A DNA stretch of 64,000 nucleotides from assembly GCA_028753945.1 (NCBI GenBank), contig JAPNXP010000013.1, positions 744,001-808,000 on the forward strand. Reading direction: 5' to 3'. This stretch comes from Hexactinellida sp. DTS-2022. Lineage: Eukaryota; Porifera; Hexactinellida. Every line of letters starts with the position of its first letter. The stretch's first letter is position 1. Below the pieces are notes generated by a model. It was not told the DNA's origin. It made no database searches and saw nothing but the letters and a program-made list of their open reading frames with translations. Below, piece by piece: positions 6,071-51,530 of this stretch. The position numbers and the translations under genes are program-made.

Positions 6071-6307
6071 TGTGATGACGGGCTGACAGGAGTGCACTAG
6101 AGGGATCCTAGTGTAGGTGGGTTATGCTTAGTACCTGTGGTAGGAGAACGGCATGGCTCACTGGTAACTAGAACTGGAGTAGACCAGTTGTAGTGTGGTC
6201 GAGGGTTACCCTCCTGATGAGTCCTTGTGATAGGACGAAACCACTTCCACCACATGTAGTATCCTGGTGGGTGTGAGATACATTTACGGTGTCTCATGCT
6301 CACCACA
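6071..6307 (+). mobile_element. Ribozyme element copy A (LTR-like, divergent)
   Basis: This 237-bp segment carries a hammerhead ribozyme at 6195-6244. Its ends are TGTGATG and CACCACA, an imperfect TG...CA inverted pair. The flanks TTCA and TCCA match at three of four bases. Only the ribozyme core and the following hairpin align well with copies B and C, so it is either an older or a different subfamily. Confidence 0.5.
6195..6244 (+). ncRNA. Type III hammerhead ribozyme A
   Basis: Order: stem III strand GTGGT, cleavage triplet GTC (6198-6200), closed stem I hairpin GAGGG-TTA-CCCTC, conserved CTGATGA (6214-6220), stem II GTCC-8 nt loop-GGAC, GAAA, and the second stem III strand CCAC. All invariant core positions are present and every stem is fully paired. 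Predicted self-cleavage is after C6200. Stems I and II are closed and stem III is open, which defines type III. Confidence 0.88.
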
Positions 6308-6465: not shown

Positions 6466-6696
6466 TAATTATTCAATTACAGTCATGACACTAAACCAAG
6501 AAGTTAGAGCATGGGTTTGAACAACTTTATGAAAGTGATGATGAAAATTCTGCAAGCATACCTTGTGATTAATATCCTGAAAGTAAATTACTATTTAGGA
6601 AATCTGATGGGAGTAACGTATGTCCCAACATATAGTATAAATTGATCTTCTTAAAATAACAATAATCAGAAAACATAAATATCTTTTTGATAATTA

Positions 6697-8211
6697 ATGG
6701 ATAAAAAATCACAAATATCCAACAAGGAACAAGCTAGGATATCCCCAGTCCTTATAGCCTCAATAGCATCTAGTCTAAGTTCATTCGTTCTTGGATTCAG
6801 CATAGGGTATCTGTCTCCCATTGAGGAAGAGATTAAAAGGATTGGAGTATTGGATGATTCCACTTTCCCAATCTTCAGTTCTTGTTTGTTCTTCGTTGCA
6901 GCCATCGGTTCAGCATCTGTTTCCTTCTTTACAGAAAGGTTAGGAGCGAAAGCTCTCATCATCCTACTCTCTCTTCCCAACGCATTAGGATGGTTACTCA
7001 TAGCTTTTGGTGATCATTGGGCAGTTATGTTGTTAGGTAGAGTTCTGACTGGTGTGGCGATTGGTGGCATTTCAGGTCTCATTTCTGTTTATATATCAGA
7101 CATGGCCCCCAAACAATCCAAAGGATTCTATGGTAGCATTTTCCAACATGCATTTGGTTCCGGAGTATTGTGCAGTCACCTACTTGGTGCATTCATTTCA
7201 TTTCGATGGCTTGCTCTGGTGCCAGTAGTAGTACTACTGATACAGTGTTTGATTCTTTCCTGGCAGCCGTATTCCCCGAGATGGCTAGCTTTCAGAGGGT
7301 TGGAGAAGGATGCGTTGAACACTCTGAAGTATCTGAGAGGTCCTAACTACGATTATCAGTCGGAGTATGAGGAGATGCGACGGGTTATAAAGGAGAGCAG
7401 TGATTGGACTTTCTTGCAACGCATTCGAAGCCTGTTTTTAGAACTGCAGAACTTGAAGATTCTTGTTATAATCTCTCTTGTGTTCGTAGGGGTGGAACTC
7501 ACTGGTATATCAATTGTTGCCTCCTATTCTTCTACAATTCTAAAGTCGAGTCGCCTGGTTTCTCCAAATGTTGCATCTTTCATTCCCACATCTGTTCAGT
7601 CAGTATCAGTCCTACTTTTCACATTTATCGTGGATAGAATTGGAAGGAAGCCTCTGTTGTTATTCTCCGGAGCTGGCATTGCTCTGAGTCACGTAATACT
7701 GTCTGTCTATTCGTTCGGTTCCTCTCATGTCTGGTCTCAGTGCTCTGAATTGGATGCTGCAACATCCAGCCTAACTAACTCTAGTGGTATTCACACACTC
7801 GTGAGTTCAGAATTCTGTGATTACATCACTCTCGTGCCTATGGCAGCTCTGATTTTACTTAGAATTGTGTATGGACTGGGATGGGGCCCTATCCCATATA
7901 TTCTCTTAGGAGAGTCTTTTCCGGTTAAAATTCGCTCTATTGCAGCTTCTGTTTGCATTTCCGTTTTCGGGTTTGTTACTGCACTGGTTGTCCTTGTATT
8001 TCCATTTCTTGAACAGTTGTTGGGAGTTCACTATATCTTCTCAATATTTGCGCTTTTGAATACCTCTACGTGTGTGTTTGTCTTTCTCTTCATTCCGGAA
8101 ACAACAGGACTGAGTCTGGAGCAGGTGGAGGAGTTGTTTAAATATAAAATTATTTTTGTTAAATGTCGGAATCCTTTCACGAGGAAATATGTGTATGATG
8201 CTTTTATGTAG
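6697..8211 (+). CDS. SLC2-like (GLUT family) sugar transporter, copy 1
   Basis: A 504-residue, intronless major facilitator superfamily protein with about 12 predicted membrane segments. Family features seen: GRVLTGVAIGG before TM4, SPRW after TM6, DRIGRKPLL between TM8 and TM9, GLGWGPIPYILLGESFP at TM10, and PETTGLSLEQVEELF after TM12. This pattern is closest to class III GLUT (GLUT6/8-like) and insect trehalose-transporter-like proteins. The loop motif after TM2 is degenerate (FFTERLGAK instead of DRxGRR), and TM7 has VELTGISIV instead of QQLSGIN, so substrate prediction is unsafe. The start follows CTTTTTGATAATTA, a context shared with copy 2 at 23039. The two proteins are nearly identical across most of their length. 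Expected role: facilitated hexose or related solute transport across a membrane. Confidence 0.9.
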   Translation: MDKKSQISNKEQARISPVLIASIASSLSSFVLGFSIGYLSPIEEEIKRIGVLDDSTFPIFSSCLFFVAAIGSASVSFFTERLGAKALIILLSLPNALGWLLIAFGDHWAVMLLGRVLTGVAIGGISGLISVYISDMAPKQSKGFYGSIFQHAFGSGVLCSHLLGAFISFRWLALVPVVVLLIQCLILSWQPYSPRWLAFRGLEKDALNTLKYLRGPNYDYQSEYEEMRRVIKESSDWTFLQRIRSLFLELQNLKILVIISLVFVGVELTGISIVASYSSTILKSSRLVSPNVASFIPTSVQSVSVLLFTFIVDRIGRKPLLLFSGAGIALSHVILSVYSFGSSHVWSQCSELDAATSSLTNSSGIHTLVSSEFCDYITLVPMAALILLRIVYGLGWGPIPYILLGESFPVKIRSIAASVCISVFGFVTALVVLVFPFLEQLLGVHYIFSIFALLNTSTCVFVFLFIPETTGLSLEQVEELFKYKIIFVKCRNPFTRKYVYDAFM

Positions 8212-23038: not shown

Positions 23039-24553
23039 ATGGCTAAAAAATCACAAACATCCAACAAAGAACAAGCTAGGATATTCTCTGTCCTTATAGC
23101 ATCAATCGCATCTAGTCTAAGCTCATTCATCTTTGGATTCAGTCTTGGGTATCCATCTCCCATTGAGGAAGAGATTAAAATATTAGGAGTGTTGGATGAT
23201 TCCACTTTCCCAATCTTCAGTTCTTGTTTGTTCTTCTTTGCGATATTTGGCTCTGCATCTGTTTCTTTCTTCACAGAAAGGTTAGGAGCGAAAGCTCTCA
23301 TCATCCTACTATCTCTTCCCAATGCATTAGGATGGTTACTCGTAGCTTTTGGTTACCATTGGGCAGTTATGGTGTTAGGCAGAGCTGTATCTGGTATGGC
23401 GATTGGTGGTTCTTCTGCTCTCATTTCTGTTTATATATCAGACATGGCACCCAAACAATCCAAAGGATTATATGGTAGCATTTTCCAACACGCATTTATA
23501 TCCGGTGTGTTATGTAGTCACCTATTTGGTGCATTCATTTCATTTCGATGGCTTGCTCTGGTGCCAGTAGTAGTACTACTAATACAGAGTTTGATTCTTT
23601 CCTGGCAGCCGTATTCCCCGAAATGGCTAGCTTCCAGAGGGTTGAAGAAGGATGCGTTGAACACTCTGAAGTATCTGAGAGGTCCTAACTACGATTATCA
23701 GTCGGAGTATGAGGAGATGCAACTGGTTATAAAGGAGAGCAGTGATTGGACTTTCTTGCAACGCATTCGAAGCCTGTTTTTGGAGCTGCAAAACTTGAAG
23801 ATACTCGTCGTCATCTGTCTTGTGTTCGTAGGGGTGGAACTCACTGGTATATCAATTGTTGCCTCCTATTCTTCTACAATTCTAAGGTCAAGTCGCCTGG
23901 TTTCTCCAAATGTTGCATCTTTCATTCCCACATCTGTTCAGTCAGTATCAGTCCTACTCTTCACATTTATCGTGGATAGAATTGGAAGGAAGCCTCTGTT
24001 GTTATTCTCGGGAGCTGGCATTGCTCTGAGTCACGTAATACTGTCTGTCTATTCGTTCGGTTCCTCTCATGTCTGGTCTCAGTGCTCTGAATTGGATGCT
24101 GCAACATCCAGTCTAACTAACTCTAGTGGTATTCACACACTCGTGAGTGTAGAGTTCTGTGATTACATCACTCTCGTGCCTATGGCAGCTCTGATTTTAC
24201 TTAGATTTGTGTACGGACTGGGATGGGGCCCTATCCCATTTATTCTCTTAGGAGAGTCTTTTCCGGTTAAAATACGCTCCATTGCAGCTTCTGTTTGCAT
24301 TTCCGTTTTCGTTTTTGCTACTGCACTGGTTGTCCTTGTATTTCCATATCTTGAGCAGTTGTTGGAAGTTCACTATATCTTCTCAATATTTGCGCTTTTG
24401 AATATCTCTACGTGTGTGTTTGTGTTTCTCTTCATTCCAGAGACAACAGGACTGAGTTTGGAGGAAGTGGAAGTGTTGTTTAAGGTTAAAATTATTTTTG
24501 TTAATTGTCAGAATCCTTTTCCAAGAAAATATGTCTATAATGCTGTTGTTTAG
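23039..24553 (+). CDS. SLC2-like (GLUT family) sugar transporter, copy 2
   Basis: A 504-residue, intronless paralogue of the gene at 6697, with the same motifs: GRAVSGMAIGG before TM4, SPKW after TM6, DRIGRKPLL, GLGWGPIPFILLGESFP and PETTGLSLEEVEVLF. Differences cluster in TM1-TM4 (for example AFGYHWAVMVLGRAVSGMAIGGSS against AFGDHWAVMLLGRVLTGVAIGG, compared in short parts) and at the C-terminus, while residues ~200-420 are almost unchanged. That pattern could reflect recent gene conversion or selection on the N-terminal half. Homology extends ~370 bp upstream but stops soon after the stop codon. Both full copies keep an open frame, so both are probably functional. Confidence 0.9.
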   Translation: MAKKSQTSNKEQARIFSVLIASIASSLSSFIFGFSLGYPSPIEEEIKILGVLDDSTFPIFSSCLFFFAIFGSASVSFFTERLGAKALIILLSLPNALGWLLVAFGYHWAVMVLGRAVSGMAIGGSSALISVYISDMAPKQSKGLYGSIFQHAFISGVLCSHLFGAFISFRWLALVPVVVLLIQSLILSWQPYSPKWLASRGLKKDALNTLKYLRGPNYDYQSEYEEMQLVIKESSDWTFLQRIRSLFLELQNLKILVVICLVFVGVELTGISIVASYSSTILRSSRLVSPNVASFIPTSVQSVSVLLFTFIVDRIGRKPLLLFSGAGIALSHVILSVYSFGSSHVWSQCSELDAATSSLTNSSGIHTLVSVEFCDYITLVPMAALILLRFVYGLGWGPIPFILLGESFPVKIRSIAASVCISVFVFATALVVLVFPYLEQLLEVHYIFSIFALLNISTCVFVFLFIPETTGLSLEEVEVLFKVKIIFVNCQNPFPRKYVYNAVV

Positions 24554-24775
24554 GTTTTTTTGCTTTTTTGATTGTAATTTCCTCTATATTAATTATATAT
24601 TTTTTAATCATTGGAAATCATTTACATCCTTTCTGTCTCTTGACAGCTTATTTTTCTATTAACTGTAAACAATGTACTACAGTGTATTAGTGGGGGAGCT
24701 TTGTTAAGACGTACCACACTCGGTTAAGACGTACCACCCTGGGAAACAAGAAAAAGTACGTATTAACCGAGGTAC

Positions 24776-25105
24776 TGTTATAGATATCACCTGTAGCCTT
24801 CAGGAGTATAGTCCTTGGGAAAGACTATAGGTGGCAGTACGGGCAGACTCATAGGTAAGTGAGTATTCACAGGCCGGCAGTACGACTGGTAACCATAGTC
24901 TAGGACTATGGAGTACATGGGCAGTACGGCACTCGCAGGAGCTGCGGGCTGGAGCGAGAGGTGCGACAGTACGCATGGTGGTCGAGGGTTACCCTCCTGA
25001 TGAGTCTCTGCAATGGGACGAAACCACACACGTAACATCCTTACGGGATGTGGTCAGCTAGAGCGGCTAGTCTTCGATACTAGGACGTGGCCTCATCTCG
25101 TAACA
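24776..25105 (+). mobile_element. Ribozyme element copy B (solo-LTR-like)
   Basis: A 330-bp element beginning TGTTATAGATATCACC and ending CTCATCTCGTAACA: TG...CA ends with a 5-bp inverted TGTTA/TAACA. It is flanked by GTAC on both sides (24772-24775 and 25106-25109). Removing the element and one GTAC restores the host MITE word GAGGTAC-TTCTTATCCG. It contains a hammerhead ribozyme at 24978-25027, then a ~60-nt hairpin. It aligns along its length with copy C (30627-30925, minus). No coding capacity. The structure is that of a solo LTR. Confidence 0.8.
24978..25027 (+). ncRNA. Type III hammerhead ribozyme B
   Basis: GTGGTC (24978-24983), stem I hairpin GAGGG-TTA-CCCTC, CTGATGA (24997-25003), stem II GTCT-CTGCAATG-GGAC (one U-G wobble), GAAA, CCAC. 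Stem III is 5 bp and open. Predicted cleavage is after C24983. All invariant core bases are present. Confidence 0.88.
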
Positions 25106-25679
25106 GTACTTCTTATCCGTATGCATAATCCACAAGTCAAAATAGTGACTTGTTCACTGATATGAATACCTTGTAGAGATATACAAGTCTCTAACATACT
25201 TAACAATAAGATTACAGTATTTTAGTTGTCGCCTACTCACTTAAACCAAATACTAACTGAGTTCTGCTGATAGTTTTCTAAAGTACGTACTAACCGAGTT
25301 AAAAATAAATACATTTTTGTTTACTTGGATATATAATTTGGTACGTCTTATCCGAGGTACGTCTTATCCGAGTACGTATTAACCGAATCATTTATAATGG
25401 ATCAGATAAGAGAAAAAATCGGTTATTAGGGAACAGTACGTAATATCCGAGAGTACGTCTTAAGCCGAGTACGTACAAGCGAGTTCCACTGTATTATGTT
25501 AGAATTTGTCCATCTCCCAAATTTACAGAGGTCATTTTGTATGGGGATACAAATTCCTTTATAATTAAGGTCCCCAAAACCCCACTTCCACGCTTATAGA
25601 GGATCATTTGTATGGAAATGAAGGAATATGGACCAAAATTTCCCCGCTTATAGAGGTTGTTTCTTTCAGCAATATTGTT

Positions 25680-26965
25680 TAAGATACTCTTAATTCGTTC
25701 ATCACAACATTGATATTTTTCCTTTTTGACGGAGGCTCATGGCCTCCGATGAGCTGCTGCTCTTTTAACATCTGCTGCTTCCCTAGAACCTCGATGAAAC
25801 GAAAGACGTTTAGTACTTGAGCACGAATAAGGGACTGAAATCCGCGATGACATTCCTCGATTTGGTTATTGGTACGATCTTCATCCTCAACTGTACGCTG
25901 ATGCATGTCCAACGATCTATTGGGAACAATAGGGCTAACGGTTTAGACGGCGGTAAGGACGTACAATGTATGTGTCCTCGAAGTAGTTCGCAATTTCCAG
26001 TCCTCGGGGATCAAATCCGTCTGCTGAGAGTAGATCGTCAAATGCTTGTTCTACTTCACCAGGAGGTAAGAATGCTAAAGCTGGAAGGCAACGCAGCCAT
26101 GAAGCGAAATCAGGATCGATTTGGTAGCCGTGCTGCAAACCTGCGGCTTGTATTCGTCGCCAAACACTATGACTAAAATGAAAAAGCAGCCTGTACAGTT
26201 TAGTCCGGGAAACGCTTCTTGGAATGCTCGGATTGCACCTTTTTCGAAGCCAGTCATTAAGCTATCTGGGTTGAGTCCAGGTTGGAGCTCATTCAGTGTC
26301 TGATGCATGACCTCATAGCATAGGTTGCAAAAAGCAAAATACAGTAGACAAGTGGAAAAATCTGCTTCCCAAAAACTCGGCCATGAATTGTATGCACCTG
26401 CTGAAATATATTTGGAGAAATTTTAAATATTCCATCAGCATACCATTTTCTGCATTGTGCGAGTAATGTTAGATTATGCCTCGGGGTGAATATTAAAATT
26501 CGATTGTGGCCAGGGCCAGAGTCGTGAAGTAGGAAATCTGTGCCATTTGGTAGAATAGTGTATTCTACTGGAATATTTAAAGATAGAAGGTCAACAGGCT
26601 GTGGAGGGAATTTTTATGTTGGTTTCTCTTCCAATGTACAGTTCTTTTCATACAAATTTTGAGGGTAATTGTGCTGCAGAAGAATCAGGAATGTTGTCGT
26701 GGTTTCGGCGATTATAGTCTGTGTTGGTTCCTGAGTAGTGGTTGCTCTTTCGCGTAACGCCTGCAGCGCTATCAACACAGGCGTCTTTGAAGCATCACCC
26801 GCGTGATTGTGTTCACCCACGTACTTTATAATTACATCGCCACTCAAATGCAATCGTCCACGACACTTTGTTTTGGTTTATGGTCACAGTACCAGCTAGT
26901 ATTGCCAGGAAGAGACAAGTCTCTATCTTGGTGTAGAAAATCAATCTTTTTCAATTTTAAGTTTC
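25680..26965 (-). pseudogene. FLYWCH-MULE transposase pseudogene
   Basis: Minus-strand order, N to C: FLYWCH zinc-finger tail (CRGRLHLSGDVIIKYVGEHN, then H), a linker, the MULE N-terminal block (HNLTLLAQCRKWYADGIFKI then FQQVHTIHGR), TGFEKGAIRAFQEAFPG with CFFH, a WLRCLPALAFLPPGEVEQAF block, NYFEDTYI, and TNNQIEECHRGFQ. This is the full domain order of FLYWCH-MULE transposases. At least four frame changes and several stops make it non-functional. Diverged from the relic at 12290-12802, so it is a separate family. Confidence 0.82.
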
Positions 26966-27117
26966 CATTTCTCTGACAATAGTTTGCGGAACATTTAGTC
27001 AACTATATGACCACTGCATTTACCCGTAGCTTTTATACAATTTTCCTCTTTGCCATTGTTAAATGGCAAGAAAGGTTGTAAGACCAATTGACACTTGCGA
27101 AGCTTACAGTGATGAAT

Positions 27118-27200
27118 TATCACCTACGATGAATTTTTGTGACGAATTATCACCTATGATGAATTTTTGTGACGAATTATCACCTATGATGAATTGTTCG
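27118..27200. repeat. 30-bp tandem repeat x2.8
   Basis: Unit GAATTATCACCTATGATG plus AATTTTTGTGAC, nearly identical copies. Confidence 0.9.
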
Positions 27201-27244
27201 TGATCAATTGTCTTTTTCCGTCTGATCAAATGGTGATTAGTCCT

Positions 27245-27465
27245 ACATTCTCGGGAGATGACGGAGTCCCTTTCAGAAGGTAAAGAAAATGTTCACCACA
27301 TTCGGAAAATATTGACAACACAAAACGCACTCTATTAGAAAGGGAGGAGCAAAATATTAACGAATATAGGAAATGATTTGAAGCTTATAGTAGAACAACT
27401 GCAGGAACTAAAGTCACTCCCAGAAATGATCAGAAACAGTAAATGATAATATCCCTACTGAGTCA
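27245..27465 (+). pseudogene. Possible Harbinger accessory (Myb-like) protein tail
   Basis: With stops removed the frame reads GKENVHHIRKILTTQNALY and NDLKLIVEQLQELKSLPEM, a helical, charged C-terminal segment. Harbinger elements usually carry a second, divergently placed Myb/SANT-type gene, and a Harbinger transposase relic lies next door on the minus strand. The link is inferred from position; no SANT motif is visible. Confidence 0.3.
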
Positions 27466-27585
27466 ACAGTCCTGCTACCCTAATATTTTAGGACTTTATG
27501 TTGTACCTAGCGTACTCAAAAATTATTCTAATTTCCCATTATTGCCACTTCCTGCTGATAATTTATAATACATAATGCTGGCAAT

Positions 27586-27771
27586 CAGTGTTTTTTTTAA
27601 GGATTTGCTTAGAGGGCCCTACCAACAATTAGAGGCCCTCGCCCCAACAATTAGAGGCCCTCACTCTACATTTCATGATATTGAGTACTTAGCACGTTAA
27701 AAATTAGAGGCCCATTGAGAAAAATTAGAAGACCATTTTGGGCCTCTAATTTGCCTTAAAAAAAACACTGC
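27586..27771. mobile_element. hAT-like MITE with perfect 8-bp TSD
   Basis: A 186-bp element with ends CAGTGTTTTTTTTAAGG and CCTTAAAAAAAACACTG. CTGGCAAT flanks both sides exactly. Internal words AATTAGAGGCCC recur. Confidence 0.92.
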
Positions 27772-28556
27772 TGGCAATCAATGAATTAATTACAATACTT
27801 ATCAAAATAAATATTGTCAATCATTCTTTATTTGATAGAATAAATAAATCAGCGTTACTTGCAAATCAAAATAATTCGATACAATTTCTTGTCTCATGAT
27901 CACTCCATTTGCTGAAGGTTCCGGGGGATCAATATCTAGCGTGTATTCTTCATCAATATCGATAACCGTTCATAGGCCATGGTTGATACAACACATGTTA
28001 TGTAATAACAGTGGCCAAGATGATTTTACAAACCCTTTCTGGAGTACGCCAGTTCTATCAATCGATCTTCACGACTTTCCAAATCCCGAACGGGAATTCG
28101 ATGGTTTTTCGAACTTTTACAAATGCGCTCGATTAAACTTTCTTTGCCCAGGAGTGATGAGAGAAGGTATGGGAGTAGTTAGATTAGTTCGTAATCCATA
28201 CGCACTGTCACCCAAAACCACCCATGGACAGTAGAAATATCACCACTTCCTATTTTACGGTTTAAACACGATTTCCGCCATATAAATGCATCATCAGTCT
28301 GCCGGGCCACTTAACGACAGCATCAATGAAGCGAAATTCGTGGTCACAAATAGTTGTATATTAATAGAATGGAATAAGTTTCGTCATTGCACGAGGGAGC
28401 TATGATAGGAATATGTGAGCCATCTATCAGTAAAAAACTAAAGGAAATCCGCCTATATGTGAGCCATCTATACAGCCAAAAACTAAATGAAATCCGCTTT
28501 GTTGAAAAAGGATTCTTAGATAATCTTTTGTAGAGTTTCATTTGGAAATTTAATAT

Positions 28557-29161
28557 ATACGAGCCCTTCGGTCTCGGTCGCTTTGCGACTGATCGATGCT
28601 ACGCACCTCAAGTTAACGGCCGCTGTGCGGCCTTACACCTCACCCTTTCTGCCATGGAAAATGGTAGAAAGGTACGTTTTATACAACCCTTTCTACCATT
28701 TTCCATAGTTTTAACTTGTTTACCAATAATACCCGTCAGAAGCTAACTTCTAGGTCGATTTTGAATTTTCATTAATTTGTTTACCTATTTTGTGTAAACA
28801 ACAACAACAAATATTAATATTATTAATTTATAAACGCGAAATTCGTGTTCAGCATACTGTTTACTTATAATACCCGTTGAAAGCTAACTTATAGGTTGAT
28901 TTTGAATTTTCATTAATTTGTTTACCATTTTTGTGTAAACAACAACAACAAATATTCATATTACAAATTTATAAACGCGAAATTCGAAATCAGCATACTT
29001 GTTTACCTATTATAACATTTGTTTACCCATTATAACATTTGGAAGTTAGTTTATATCTCATATATAAATGCGGTTTCTATTCCCCCATCATTTTAATACA
29101 ATCCGGACAAACAAACACACAAACACACAAACACACAACAATCGAGATTTAATAATATAGA
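28557..29161 (-). mobile_element. Helitron/Helentron-like element, complete
   Basis: Reverse-strand counterpart of 19029-19637. The minus strand starts TCTATATTATTAAATCTCG and ends ...CGAGACCGAAGGGCTCGT, with the same two ~140-bp subrepeats. It separates two parts of the Harbinger pseudogene, so it inserted after that element had landed. Confidence 0.55.
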
Positions 29162-29335
29162 TATATACGGTATGCGCAATAGAAGCTAAACCATCACACA
29201 CAGCTGTAACGCATCTTGATACATACGTCTGTGAAACTCCATGAGCAGATGCAACAACAATCTGAAATGTGCCCGTAGCTAAGAATTGTAGTGCTACTGC
29301 AAATTGTGTTGTTGCAGGAATAGAATAGGAGCGAG

Positions 29336-29495
29336 CAGAGGCGTAGCTAGGCCTGCATGAAGGTGCGGCACTGGTAGATTATGGTTGCGGCGCGGCATTT
29401 CCGCACTATAGTTTTATACTAATGGGCATTTTTGTGGGCACAAATTTTTAGGGTGCGGCCTGTGCCCCAAGTGCCGCACCCTGGCTACGCCTCTG
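29336..29495. mobile_element. hAT-like MITE (CAGAGGCGTAGCTAGG)
   Basis: A 160-bp element with ends CAGAGGCGTAGCTAGG and CTGGCTACGCCTCTG, flanked by GGAGCGAG and CGAGCGAG (seven of eight bases equal). It is inserted in the Harbinger transposase relic. Confidence 0.85.
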
Positions 29496-29654
29496 CGAGC
29501 GAGTAGTTGATGAACTTTACTAGAAATCTGATCCAGAATTTCAATGAACATGTACCGCTTAATTATGTACCAGGTAATAAATTCTCTATCTGAATATCCC
29601 TCTAAGGGGGTAAGTCAATCTCTAACTCTTTGACGACGTAAGCTAATTTCAATT

Positions 29655-30415
29655 TAAAGTTCAAGTATATGCAGCGCTGATGCTATCGTCGTGTGTGAAT
29701 ATAGAATAAAAGTACTCTGAGGAATTAGATTTGAATTAACAGTATTTCTTTTATAAATAAATCTAACTACCGATTAAACTCAAAACGCTAGTATCCATTT
29801 TCAGGCATAAACTATGTTTTTAATACGCTGTTAGAAGATTATTGTGTCTACATTACAATCCCTATTGTTCATAAATATTTTGGCCAGGGAGTGTATGATG
29901 CCTTACTACTTGGTGTATTAATCACTAAAGTACAACTTCCTGACTCCAGAATTAATTTCTCCACGTCTATAATTGTATACTTAAGATTGGACATATTTTT
30001 ACAACAGGACATATTTACAGCATATCCATGTTTTTGTAAAATACTGTCCATATTTATTCTTGGACATAATTTTACGAAACAGGCCTACAATATCGAGAGA
30101 TGCTCCCATATACTGAATACAAGAGGACTAATCTAGGCGTACAAAATGAAAACTGAACGAGCTCTAACAAAATCTAGGAGCGGGGTAATTATTTCCTGGA
30201 TGAAAGCCTGGTATGTAGTATGTACTAATACAAATTTAATCTAAGTATACATTGATTTCAAAGACGAGCGAGCTCAGCGAGAAAGAAAAATTTTTGGTGT
30301 GAAGAGGTTTTTCAAATATCATTGAATATTACTAAATAATTTGAGGATAACATTATTATATTTTTGATTTTAGGGGAGATAAAATATGAGAAGCACGAAA
30401 TATTTGTTGGCAGGT
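29655..30415. other. Gene-free stretch
   Basis: Overlapping short frames on both strands at 29869-30136 give no recognisable domain. Otherwise AT-rich spacer. Confidence 0.45.
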
Positions 30416-30626
30416 TGACTGAATAGGATCGACCTCTGAATTTATTTAATGGAATAAGATCGACCCATTGCCAAGACTGGAATAAGATCGACCCATTTTC
30501 ACGTCTAGAATAAGATAGGCTCTTTTGGTGTGTATTATGGCTCATTTCACGTCTAGAATAAGAACGACCTATTGTTAATCTGATATTGATCTAATGTAAT
30601 ACATTCACTGATCTCTTAGATGAAGC

Positions 30627-30925
30627 TGTTATGAGATGAGGCCACGGCTCAGTATGAAGACTAGCCGCTATCTCGGCCGACCTCATCCCATAGGGAAGTT
30701 ATGTGTGTGGTTTCGTCCCATTGCAGGGACTCATCAGGAGGGTAACCCTCGACCTACTTATTGCACCTAGCACCAGGTACCTTTACGCATACCAGTTACC
30801 AGTCCGTACTGCCGGCCTGTGAATACATCACTAACTCACACTGCGTGAGTCTGCCCGTACTGCCAACCTACCCAGGGCTCCTCAACCCCAAGTACTCCCG
30901 AGGACTCCAGGTAATGTCTATAACA
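30627..30925 (-). mobile_element. Ribozyme element copy C (solo-LTR-like)
   Basis: A 299-bp element on the minus strand, beginning TGTTATAGACATTACCTGG and ending CTCATCTCATAACA. It is flanked by AAGC on both sides (30623-30626 and 30926-30929). Shared with copy B: GGCAGTACGGGCAGACTCA, TATTCACAGGCCGGCAGTAC, the ribozyme and the downstream hairpin. TG...CA ends and a 4-bp target duplication indicate an LTR-like insertion. Confidence 0.82.
30707..30755 (-). ncRNA. Hammerhead ribozyme C (stem III degenerate)
   Basis: The minus strand reads AGGTC, stem I hairpin GAGGG-TTA-CCCTC, CTGATGA, stem II GTCC-CTGCAATG-GGAC (fully paired, where copy B has a wobble), GAAA, CCAC. Core bases are intact, but the upstream stem III strand is TAGGT instead of GTGGT, leaving about three pairs with ACCAC. 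Activity is therefore doubtful. Confidence 0.75.
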
Positions 30926-31315
30926 AAGCTATACCTAAGGTGTCAGAGTGCTGCAGTAAGATCGAATTAATAATATCTTATTCCAGCCGTGAAAATGGGT
31001 CGATCTTATTCCAGTCGTGAAAATGGGTCGATCATATTCCAGCCGTGAAAATGGGTCGATCATATTCCAGTCGATCCTATTCAGGTTACCCGGATCGACG
31101 CCCTTGCTTAAGGACCATGGTTATTAATACATTGTATTATTAAATATTGCTTTCCCAGATGTTTGTTTTAGTATACCAGTCGTCTATCTTATCCTTGGTG
31201 CAAAATAACCATTCTTTGTATATGTATTCGAATGGTTACTTTAGTTTAACCTGATCTTGTGTATGTGAACAAAGGAAAAAACGTTATTTTGGGTTTTTCA
31301 ATACTTACATTTAAC

Positions 31316-50969: not shown

Positions 50970-51530
50970 TTACTCTTGTTCTATCGGGATAAACGATTCT
51001 TCTTCTCCAACATACAGCTCATAAATTAATCCTTTTCGACTAATACCAGAAGAGTATGTCTTTAGAAACGCCGGATCTTCACCAATTGAGAAATAAACAA
51101 TTGTACCTTCATCGCTAAACTCTGATTCTACATCCAACAATAGACCATCCACGTATATTTCCATTGAGACCTTATCAAGAGTGACTCGGTGCTTTATACT
51201 ATCCAACACAGGTGCCCATATTACGAGGGATCTCTTCATGGTTTGTGCGAATTTATCTAAAGGATTCCCATTTATATAGAGAGTGTATTCAAAGATTAAT
51301 CCATCAGGTTGGATGGTGATCATGATATTTTTATCTCCCATTTTGAATTCTTGAATTCCTACTAACGGGAGCATCCAGTTCTTTCGAAATATCTCTTTAC
51401 CGTCTACACTGATTACCCTCTTCCCAGATATTGTACCATGCACAAATTCCACCACATGCATGTTGTCTGCTAGTAACACATTCCATTTGGCAGAAGGTGT
51501 TTCCTTGGTAGCCGATTGTGATTGAGCCAT
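50970..51530 (-). CDS. FAIM: Fas apoptotic inhibitory molecule 1
   Basis: A 186-residue intronless protein, close to the human length (about 180-200). Conserved FAIM segments: KWNVLLADNMHVVEFVHGTI, SGKRVISVDGKEIFRKNWM, GLIFEYTLYINGNPLDKF, and a C-terminal VDGLLLDVESEF. FAIM is a cytosolic all-beta protein reported to inhibit death-receptor apoptosis and to protect against protein aggregation. It lies in LOXL intron 5 on the opposite strand, with its start ~560 bp before LOXL exon 6. Confidence 0.93.
   Translation of the reverse strand: MAQSQSATKETPSAKWNVLLADNMHVVEFVHGTISGKRVISVDGKEIFRKNWMLPLVGIQEFKMGDKNIMITIQPDGLIFEYTLYINGNPLDKFAQTMKRSLVIWAPVLDSIKHRVTLDKVSMEIYVDGLLLDVESEFSDEGTIVYFSIGEDPAFLKTYSSGISRKGLIYELYVGEEESFIPIEQE

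Follow-up and report, generated by a model that had tools for sequence, protein, structure and literature searches.

Small long terminal repeat (LTR) retrozyme-like elements with predicted type III hammerheads and a covarying junction hairpin in a glass sponge genome

Introduction

The retrozyme literature, in the parts of the papers available to us, separates two kinds of element by host: elements with LTRs and type III hammerhead ribozymes in plants, and elements of non-LTR type with type I hammerheads in animals (PMC4918200, PMC7229834, PMC7761336, PMC11722881). Further papers describe the same split (PMC9695139, PMC6155905, PMC3088659, PMC10886601), and insect elements of type III are noted in one review (PMC7761336). 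In this study, we analysed a window of 64,000 nucleotides from the glass sponge Hexactinellida sp. DTS-2022 (contig JAPNXP010000013.1, positions 744,001 to 808,000), in which an earlier note had reported LTR-like copies carrying type III hammerheads, and we followed these copies through the genome (112.4 Mb in 18 contigs, the window lying on contig C5). We consider it probable that each window copy is a single-LTR insertion and that together they represent three related families of small, non-coding retrozyme-like elements of LTR type, with a cycle that would be primed by a hairpin and completed by an integrase acting in trans.

Several described systems come close to these elements. Penelope-like elements encode a reverse transcriptase with a GIY-YIG coding region and carry a minimal type I hammerhead, and Tf1-type elements take their primer from their own RNA, namely the 5' end of the transcript. 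Self-primed LTR elements of the Tf1 type are mentioned in PMC6934838 and PMC5445492. As the available text describes them, plant LTR retrozymes (Cervera 2016, PMC4918200) have a type III hammerhead in each LTR of about 300-400 bp, a non-coding spacer, a primer site for transfer RNA (tRNA)-Met, a polypurine tract and 4-bp target duplications, with 600-1000 nt between ribozymes; isolated hammerheads in units of 300-400 bp also occur, and a box is shared with integrase-carrying LTR elements. For single LTRs in plants, it was suggested that they reflect the length of the complementary DNA (cDNA) (PMC11722881). Animal non-LTR retrozymes (Cervera 2020, PMC7229834) are described as small non-coding units with type I hammerheads, arranged in tandem arrays, without LTR, primer site or polypurine tract in the available account, and with duplications, if any, longer than 4 bp. 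In the coding Copia elements of the fungal GalEa group, a Conserved Hairpin Site with conserved 9-bp arms lies right after the 5' LTR and replaces the primer site, and the authors know no model that fits it (PMC5445492). Bivalve terminal-repeat retrotransposons in miniature (TRIM) are tiny non-autonomous LTR elements with no evident primer site and a hairpin inside the spacer, and the available text on them mentions no ribozyme (PMC6934838).

Results

The earlier note had described two LTR-like copies in the window with TG...CA ends, perfect 4-bp duplications (GTAC and AAGC) and a hammerhead in each, and every part of this description was confirmed (Table 1). The family-A copy begins TGTTATAGA, ends CGTAACA and is flanked by GTAC on both sides, while the family-B copy, read on its own minus strand, begins TGTTATAGA, ends CATAACA and is flanked by GCTT on both sides. 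A third copy had been called divergent. It is indeed related and contains a type III hammerhead, but it belongs to a separate family of 237-bp units (family C). When the window copies of families A and C were aligned, 45 of 51 ribozyme positions were identical, compared with 94 of 174 aligned positions outside, where 117 columns were gapped; we therefore rejected the view that the third copy is a decayed copy of the same LTR.

Covariance-model analysis by cmscan placed all three window hammerheads above the Rfam gathering score for the type III model Hammerhead_3 (RF00008, 48.5 bits), with E-values from 2e-10 to 3e-8. The cleavage site given for family A in Table 1 is presumed from general hammerhead knowledge. 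By reading of the sequence, the family-B ribozyme has only about three stem III pairs, and may therefore work better as a dimer.

We then searched the genome for each family. The family-A window copy had full-length matches of 98-99% identity at six other places, two of which (on C15) are the LTR pair of one element. Family B was present at 15 places at 97-100% identity, the window copy included (best 40 of 377 candidates scored). For family C, 51 matches were obtained at E <= 0.001 (best 40 of 318 candidates scored), 40 of them at least 180 bases long, a count that includes the window copy and, for some two-unit loci, both units. RF00008 itself matched at least 68 genome places, 64 of them over the cut-off; this is a lower bound, because scoring covered 68 of 12319 first-look candidates and the count leaves out the three hammerheads of the window itself.

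Comparison of the aligned copies indicated that the ribozyme changes less than the remaining LTR in two of the three families. Mismatches inside and outside the ribozyme were 84/2239 and 946/9518 in family A (p = 4e-24), and 12/864 and 101/2736 in family C (p = 5e-4); these p values, like those given for family B below, are overstated, since the compared copies are related. The core GUC..CUGAUGA..GAAAC was intact in 31 of 40 matches of the family-A set (one of these a 65-base match), in 16 of 17 of family B and in 14 of 16 of family C. In five of the nine family-A exceptions the core reads CUGAGGA, changed at position 7, where any base is generally tolerated. The type I model RF00163 gave no match in the genome, but 14 controls were equally silent, so this result says little.

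Two further hammerhead or LTR arrangements were observed. On contig C1, eight type III hammerheads lie within 0.9 Mb (13001772-13906673, at 13001772, 13051218, 13085778, 13134963, 13299429, 13359779, 13869902 and 13906620), outside the listed places of families A, B and C; five of the eight have equal scores, and the cluster is possibly a further family or a segmental repeat. At locus L036 (1767-2044), six successive 57-58-bp matches to a piece of the LTR 5' half (CCGGCAGTACGACTGG...) follow each other on one strand in steps of about 44 bp, between two longer matches, forming a tandem array within one LTR copy.

The earlier note had proposed a search for direct LTR pairs with a primer-binding site and a polypurine tract. 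Pairs and tract were both found, in loci L009 and L017, where direct LTRs lie 486-504 bp apart start to start, whereas a tRNA primer-binding site was not found at the junctions read. A lack of paired LTRs, which the note had named among the outcomes that would refute it, is thus contradicted. L009 consists of two direct 330-bp LTRs, 329/330 identical and 504 bp apart; a 174-bp spacer separates them, a polypurine tract (AAAAAGGGAAGGTGA) immediately precedes the downstream one, and TACT flanks the element on each side. Each LTR contains the 54 ribozyme letters of the family-A window copy. L017 has five 325-bp LTRs with five RF00008 matches and spacers of 161, 161 and 202 bp, and its LTRs lie 486 bp apart within an arm, or 527 bp where 41 bp are duplicated. 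The two-unit family-B loci L091 and L095 have units 385 bp apart and perfect duplications (CTAC and ATAG), and the two-unit family-C locus L101 has units 311 bp apart and the duplication AAAC. Partial LTR-spacer forms were seen at L029, L033, L035 and L081, and the family-C spacer is whole at three places and partial at two more (C16:4738558 and C12:5333724, both unread). A polypurine tract precedes the downstream LTR in L009, L017, L091 and L101, and a weaker one in L033.

Between equivalent points, the distance from ribozyme to ribozyme is thus 504, 486 (527 once), 385 or 311 bp, below the distance in plant elements. The spacers of L009 and L017 (161-202 bp) are too short for the usual enzymes or for the reverse transcriptase and GIY-YIG region of Penelope, so the elements are predicted to be non-coding. 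A coding partner sought through a spacer pattern (GGTTGTGTGGRRGRCTAA) was rejected, as seven of its eight genome places lie within already known elements, the eighth (C11:6246362) being unread.

Both ends were read in 45 copies, and in 33 of these the 4-bp flanks, which the earlier note took for target duplications, were perfect (17/23 in family A, 10/13 in B and 6/9 in C, the last including the window copy as L071), compared with 15 of 1980 when left and right flanks from different copies were combined, indicating that they are genuine and not random. Twenty-nine of the 33 are single units and four are direct two-unit elements. The predominance of single units, together with the short imperfect inverted repeats at the ends of families A and B (TGTTA...TAACA), might suggest non-autonomous DNA transposons of the miniature inverted-repeat type with a passenger ribozyme. 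We rejected this reading on the paired LTRs and polypurine tracts, and consider it highly improbable, because direct two-LTR elements and arrays with a polypurine tract exist, the TG...CA ends go with 4-bp duplications, and the box formed by polypurine tract and LTR start appears to be shared with integrase-bearing elements (see below). We attach hardly any credence to the idea that a viroid-like or delta-like hammerhead RNA replicates independently and is occasionally copied into DNA: unit size and circular logic resemble those of viroid-like RNAs, and hammerheads are reported, in the available text, in animal delta-like RNAs (PMC7936874), but LTR-type ends, polypurine tracts and precise 4-bp duplications in many copies would not be expected from random capture. 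Paired LTRs, polypurine tracts, 4-bp duplications, type III ribozymes and non-coding spacers support the proposal of the earlier note that this is an LTR-type retrozyme-like family in an animal, and the anatomy of these putative elements is well supported.

In family B, single units at 97-100% identity to the window copy numbered 13, this copy included, compared with two two-unit loci. Eleven of these singles were read, while C12:4086946 and C7:1246427 were called single only because no neighbour was listed. No intact LTR-hairpin-spacer-LTR copy of family B was found among the best 40 of 377 candidates, a partial match at C6:1403065 being unread. In both two-unit loci, L091 and L095, the upstream LTR is shortened. 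The same form was observed across families B and C (L091, L095, L101, L102 and L103), where the upstream unit ends soon after the ribozyme and a short stretch leads to the 3' arm of a hairpin. Because the same join recurs at different sites, the shortened join seems to have been copied as such; a chance deletion in L091 and L095 was considered and dropped, as family C has a like shortening at more than one locus.

A circle running from hammerhead to hammerhead would hold one LTR, one hairpin and one polypurine tract, from which one round of copying would yield an LTR on its own, correct at both ends. Copying may thus produce lone LTRs directly, without later recombination, and recombination between LTRs is a possible source as well. 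The earlier note had called the window copies solo LTRs. They are single units, though not necessarily leftovers, since copying may yield them directly. According to a competing explanation, these are ordinary TRIM-like miniature LTR elements with a chance ribozyme, inserted after two strand transfers and reduced to singles by later LTR recombination, with the hairpin used for dimerisation or packaging. Two-LTR elements with polypurine tract and duplications do exist in this genome, and single LTRs commonly arise when LTRs recombine. We nevertheless find this explanation rather unlikely, because the family-B counts above show many near-identical singles and no intact two-LTR copy among the candidates scored, because L091 and L095 share the shortened LTR at different sites, which standard LTR regeneration would not keep, and because no tRNA site was found at the junctions read and inverted arrays integrate whole.

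A primer site complementary to a tRNA 3' end would start TGG. No tRNA-type primer site was found at the junctions read, which start TAAG, TTAG, TAAT, TCTG, TTAT or TCAT and never TGG; internal tRNA fragments were not searched. In the nine junctions compared, the last seven bases of the LTR and the bases that follow form a stem of at least 14 bp with a 3' arm just downstream, and all nine elements folded much better than shuffles, with z from -7.4 to -9.9. Across the nine, 134 of 135 cells were paired and 9 of 15 pairs had changed on both sides. None of 500 shuffles reached the covariation score, 6 of 500 had as many further pair types, and pairing fell to 57% or less when the partner was shifted by 1-3 columns. 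Because inverted arrays alone could create palindromes, the count was repeated on the six rows with a spacer after the hairpin. In these, 90 of 90 cells were paired and 7 of 15 pairs had changed on both sides, while on further pair types these rows did not exceed shuffles (97/500). The alignments indicate a covarying hairpin that spans the LTR end and the spacer start.

We further examined arrays in which LTRs face each other. Four of the five inverted arrays with tested outer ends (L017, L058, L102 and L103) carry perfect 4-bp duplications outside the whole array and have LTR 5' ends at both outer sides. L017 has the order LTR-spacer-LTR-hairpin-LTR'-spacer'-LTR'-spacer'-LTR', is centred on the hairpin and has CTAT outside the whole array. 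Its two units facing across the hairpin are identical, and one base apart from the other three, from which we infer that a hairpin-ended strand was extended on its own LTR or on a sister molecule before integration; given the unequal arms (two and three units), a sister molecule fits no less well than a strict fold-back. Where the third unit of L017 is followed by the fourth, 41 bp of LTR end are duplicated six bases into the hairpin, as if synthesis had jumped back there. L058, a relative of family C, is a hairpin-centred LTR-hairpin-LTR' with the duplication CGTA, and its arms are identical to each other at 231/231 positions and to L057 at 230/231. L103 and L102 are more complex fold-backs with the duplications ATAT and CTAG, respectively, and L099 and L100 are hairpin-centred inversions that are more diverged.

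Hairpin and inverted arrays appear to point to hairpin-primed reverse transcription. The hairpin could conversely be a product, arising by chance joining or fold-back of cDNA ends, with the copied arm fixed in later templates and some other primer in use. Fold-backs occur away from the hairpin too (L102, L103), and copy-back alone would yield matching changes on both arms. This order of events is unlikely in our judgement, since the same hairpin sits precisely where LTR and spacer meet in all six spacer-followed rows, its loops differing and mismatches occurring inside it, and since this junction is the usual primer-site position of other LTR elements.

A helper from the Copia/GalEa group was rejected, because the genome has one match to Copia reverse transcriptase (RVT_2) and it is broken. 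Integrase (PF00665) matched at least 150 places in the genome (best 150 of 706 candidates scored). Among 100 listed matches to a pattern for the box of polypurine tract and LTR start (GGAAGGTGATGTNA), 10 lie 530-887 bp downstream of an integrase match on the same strand, compared with 0.1 expected, and within 1500 bp none lies upstream or on the other strand. Among the ten, the box at C6:2824149 is a weaker one. Two boxes were read. The first, chosen because it begins TGTTA, continues TGTTATAGAT, a ten-base identity to the family-A LTR start, and the second continues TGTCATGGAT. By eye, none of the 68 listed hammerhead places, a list that is incomplete, lies within 2 kb of the ten boxes. An integrase-bearing element that shares the box is a possible helper of the sponge elements, by an argument that parallels the one made for plant LTR retrozymes (PMC4918200, available text). 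Because Copia is nearly absent, this candidate helper is guessed to be Ty3-like.

The coordinates of the window features are collected in Table 1. A tRNA scan of the window found none. A predicted protein at 50970-51530 (minus strand) has seven protein matches, including one of 72% identity in the glass sponge Oopsacas minuta and three others of 94, 86 and 83%; judged by this single protein, the host looks hexactinellid. Further frames, recognised by eye, presumably encode a FERM-domain tyrosine phosphatase, SRCR-like domains and a pair of sugar transporters, and look animal. The transporter-like pair consists of two long, very similar single-frame genes (6694-8211 and 23039-24553), one downstream of the family-C copy and the other immediately upstream of the family-A copy. 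A repeat run of the type GGAATA(A/T)GATCGACCCATTTTCAC (30950-31100) adjoins the family-B copy. The family-A copy is hosted by a repeat at 24690-24775 (GGTTAAGACGTACCAC...) that resembles the flanks of copy L034, and some insertion targets may themselves be repeats.

Table 1. Positions of the LTR units, flanking duplications and predicted hammerheads in the window
Feature	Position	Strand	Remarks
Single LTR unit, family A	24776..25105	+	330 bp, TGTTATAGAT...CTCGTAACA
Left target-site duplication GTAC	24772..24775	.	exact match to right flank
Right target-site duplication GTAC	25106..25109	.	exact match to left flank
Type III hammerhead, family A	24976..25029	+	RF00008 by cmscan, 53.7 bits; predicted cleavage after 24983 (GUC)
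Single LTR unit, family B	30627..30925	-	299 bp
Target-site duplication AAGC (+ strand)	30926..30929	.	family-B copy flank
Target-site duplication AAGC (+ strand)	30623..30626	.	family-B copy flank
Type III hammerhead, short stem III, family B	30706..30758	-	RF00008 by cmscan, 50.9 bits
Single LTR unit, family C	6071..6307	+	237 bp, TGTGATGAC...CTCACCACA; imperfect duplication TTCA/TCCA
Type III hammerhead, family C	6193..6246	+	RF00008 by cmscan, 58.3 bits

Discussion

In this study, we found three families of small LTR elements with type III hammerheads in a sponge, and the cycle that we infer from their sequences would run as follows. The full element would be an LTR with the ribozyme inside, the hairpin, a short spacer, the polypurine tract and a second LTR. 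Tandem units would be transcribed, and cutting by the hammerhead of each LTR would release one-unit RNAs of about 311-504 nt that may be closed into circles by ligation. Reverse transcription would be primed by the hairpin of LTR end and spacer, with no tRNA, and the second strand would begin at the polypurine tract. An integrase in trans, probably from a Ty3-like element with the shared box, would insert the TG...CA-ended DNA and create the 4-bp duplication. After one round of copying the product would be a lone LTR, correct at both ends, which would account for the many young single copies; further rounds would give direct arrays, and extension of the hairpin onto the same or another cDNA would give inverted arrays. 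Hairpin priming together with a circular origin of single LTRs stands, in our view, about evenly balanced. The fuller proposal is somewhat more tentative: that these are animal LTR retrozymes in which a covarying junction hairpin has replaced the tRNA primer, that lone LTRs and direct or inverted arrays come from a circle without two strand transfers, and that the duplication-flanked inverted arrays are a record of priming.

Several observations weigh against this cycle. L091, L095, L101 and L102 have lost the 3' end of the upstream LTR, which their own circles would lack, and no intact family-B LTR-hairpin junction was seen among the loci read. Fold-back is not confined to the hairpin, because L102 turns away from it, L103 folds back a second time within the spacer, and the inversion of L024 is off-centre and without a perfect outer duplication. 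The hairpin could instead serve packaging or dimerisation, and the exact palindromes of inverted arrays could be the product of copy-back and not its cause. The family-B ribozyme was not detectably better conserved than the rest of the LTR (19/934 vs 94/3722, p = 0.48), and leaving out the related loci L099 and L100 made no difference (3/770 vs 26/3270, p = 0.34). Twelve of the 45 copies have no perfect duplication. As to the helper, the box pattern with one mismatch allowed had 130 matches, fewer than the 210 of the reversed control, so that a match by itself carries no weight, and one of the ten integrase-adjacent boxes reads ATATTA, not TGTNA.

Penelope-like elements differ from the sponge elements in being coding, whereas here the ribozyme is of type III and the spacers of L009 and L017 leave no room for such a region. 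Tf1-type elements would share with them the use of the element's own RNA as primer, but in the sponge the complement is a local hairpin adjoining the LTR. Plant LTR retrozymes (PMC4918200) are alike in having a type III hammerhead in each LTR, a non-coding spacer, 4-bp duplications, a polypurine tract, isolated single units and, possibly, a box in common with integrase-carrying LTR elements. They differ in host, that of the sponge elements being an animal, in their tRNA-Met site, where the sponge elements have a covarying hairpin, in the distance between ribozymes (311-504 bp here), and in that their available description mentions no inverted arrays with outer duplications, which are present in the sponge. 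Family A fits the plant LTR length (330 bp; 325 bp in L017), while families B (299 bp) and C (237 bp) are shorter. By membership rules, the sponge elements are not plant-type LTR retrozymes, because the tRNA site is absent at the junctions read, although they would work like one.

With the animal non-LTR retrozymes (PMC7229834), the sponge elements share the animal host, the small non-coding hammerhead units and a similar size, but all window ribozymes match RF00008, and LTRs, polypurine tracts and 4-bp duplications are present. The GalEa hairpin (PMC5445492) is alike in its place right after the 5' LTR and differs from the sponge hairpin, whose stem of at least 14 bp includes the LTR end and covaries; the only counterpart here of the GalEa polymerase is the broken RVT_2 match. 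Bivalve TRIM elements (PMC6934838) are similarly tiny, non-autonomous and of animal host, and differ in the ribozyme and in the position of the hairpin. The suggestion of the earlier note that the family is possibly undescribed fits the open-access literature searched, a scope that leaves out preprints and most subscription papers and in which the papers listed gave nothing relevant on hammerheads in sponges; it is tempered by the review, available in part, in which insect elements of type III appear (PMC7761336).

Type III ribozymes in LTR-type elements of a sponge break the plant/animal rule of the retrozyme literature, as far as its available text goes, and bring the LTR-retrozyme design into a lineage that branched off early among animals. 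Through the hairpin and the inverted arrays it becomes possible to test how reverse transcription starts in LTR elements without a tRNA site, which the available account of the conserved hairpin site leaves open (PMC5445492). These elements also let one ask whether single LTRs arise directly from an RNA circle.

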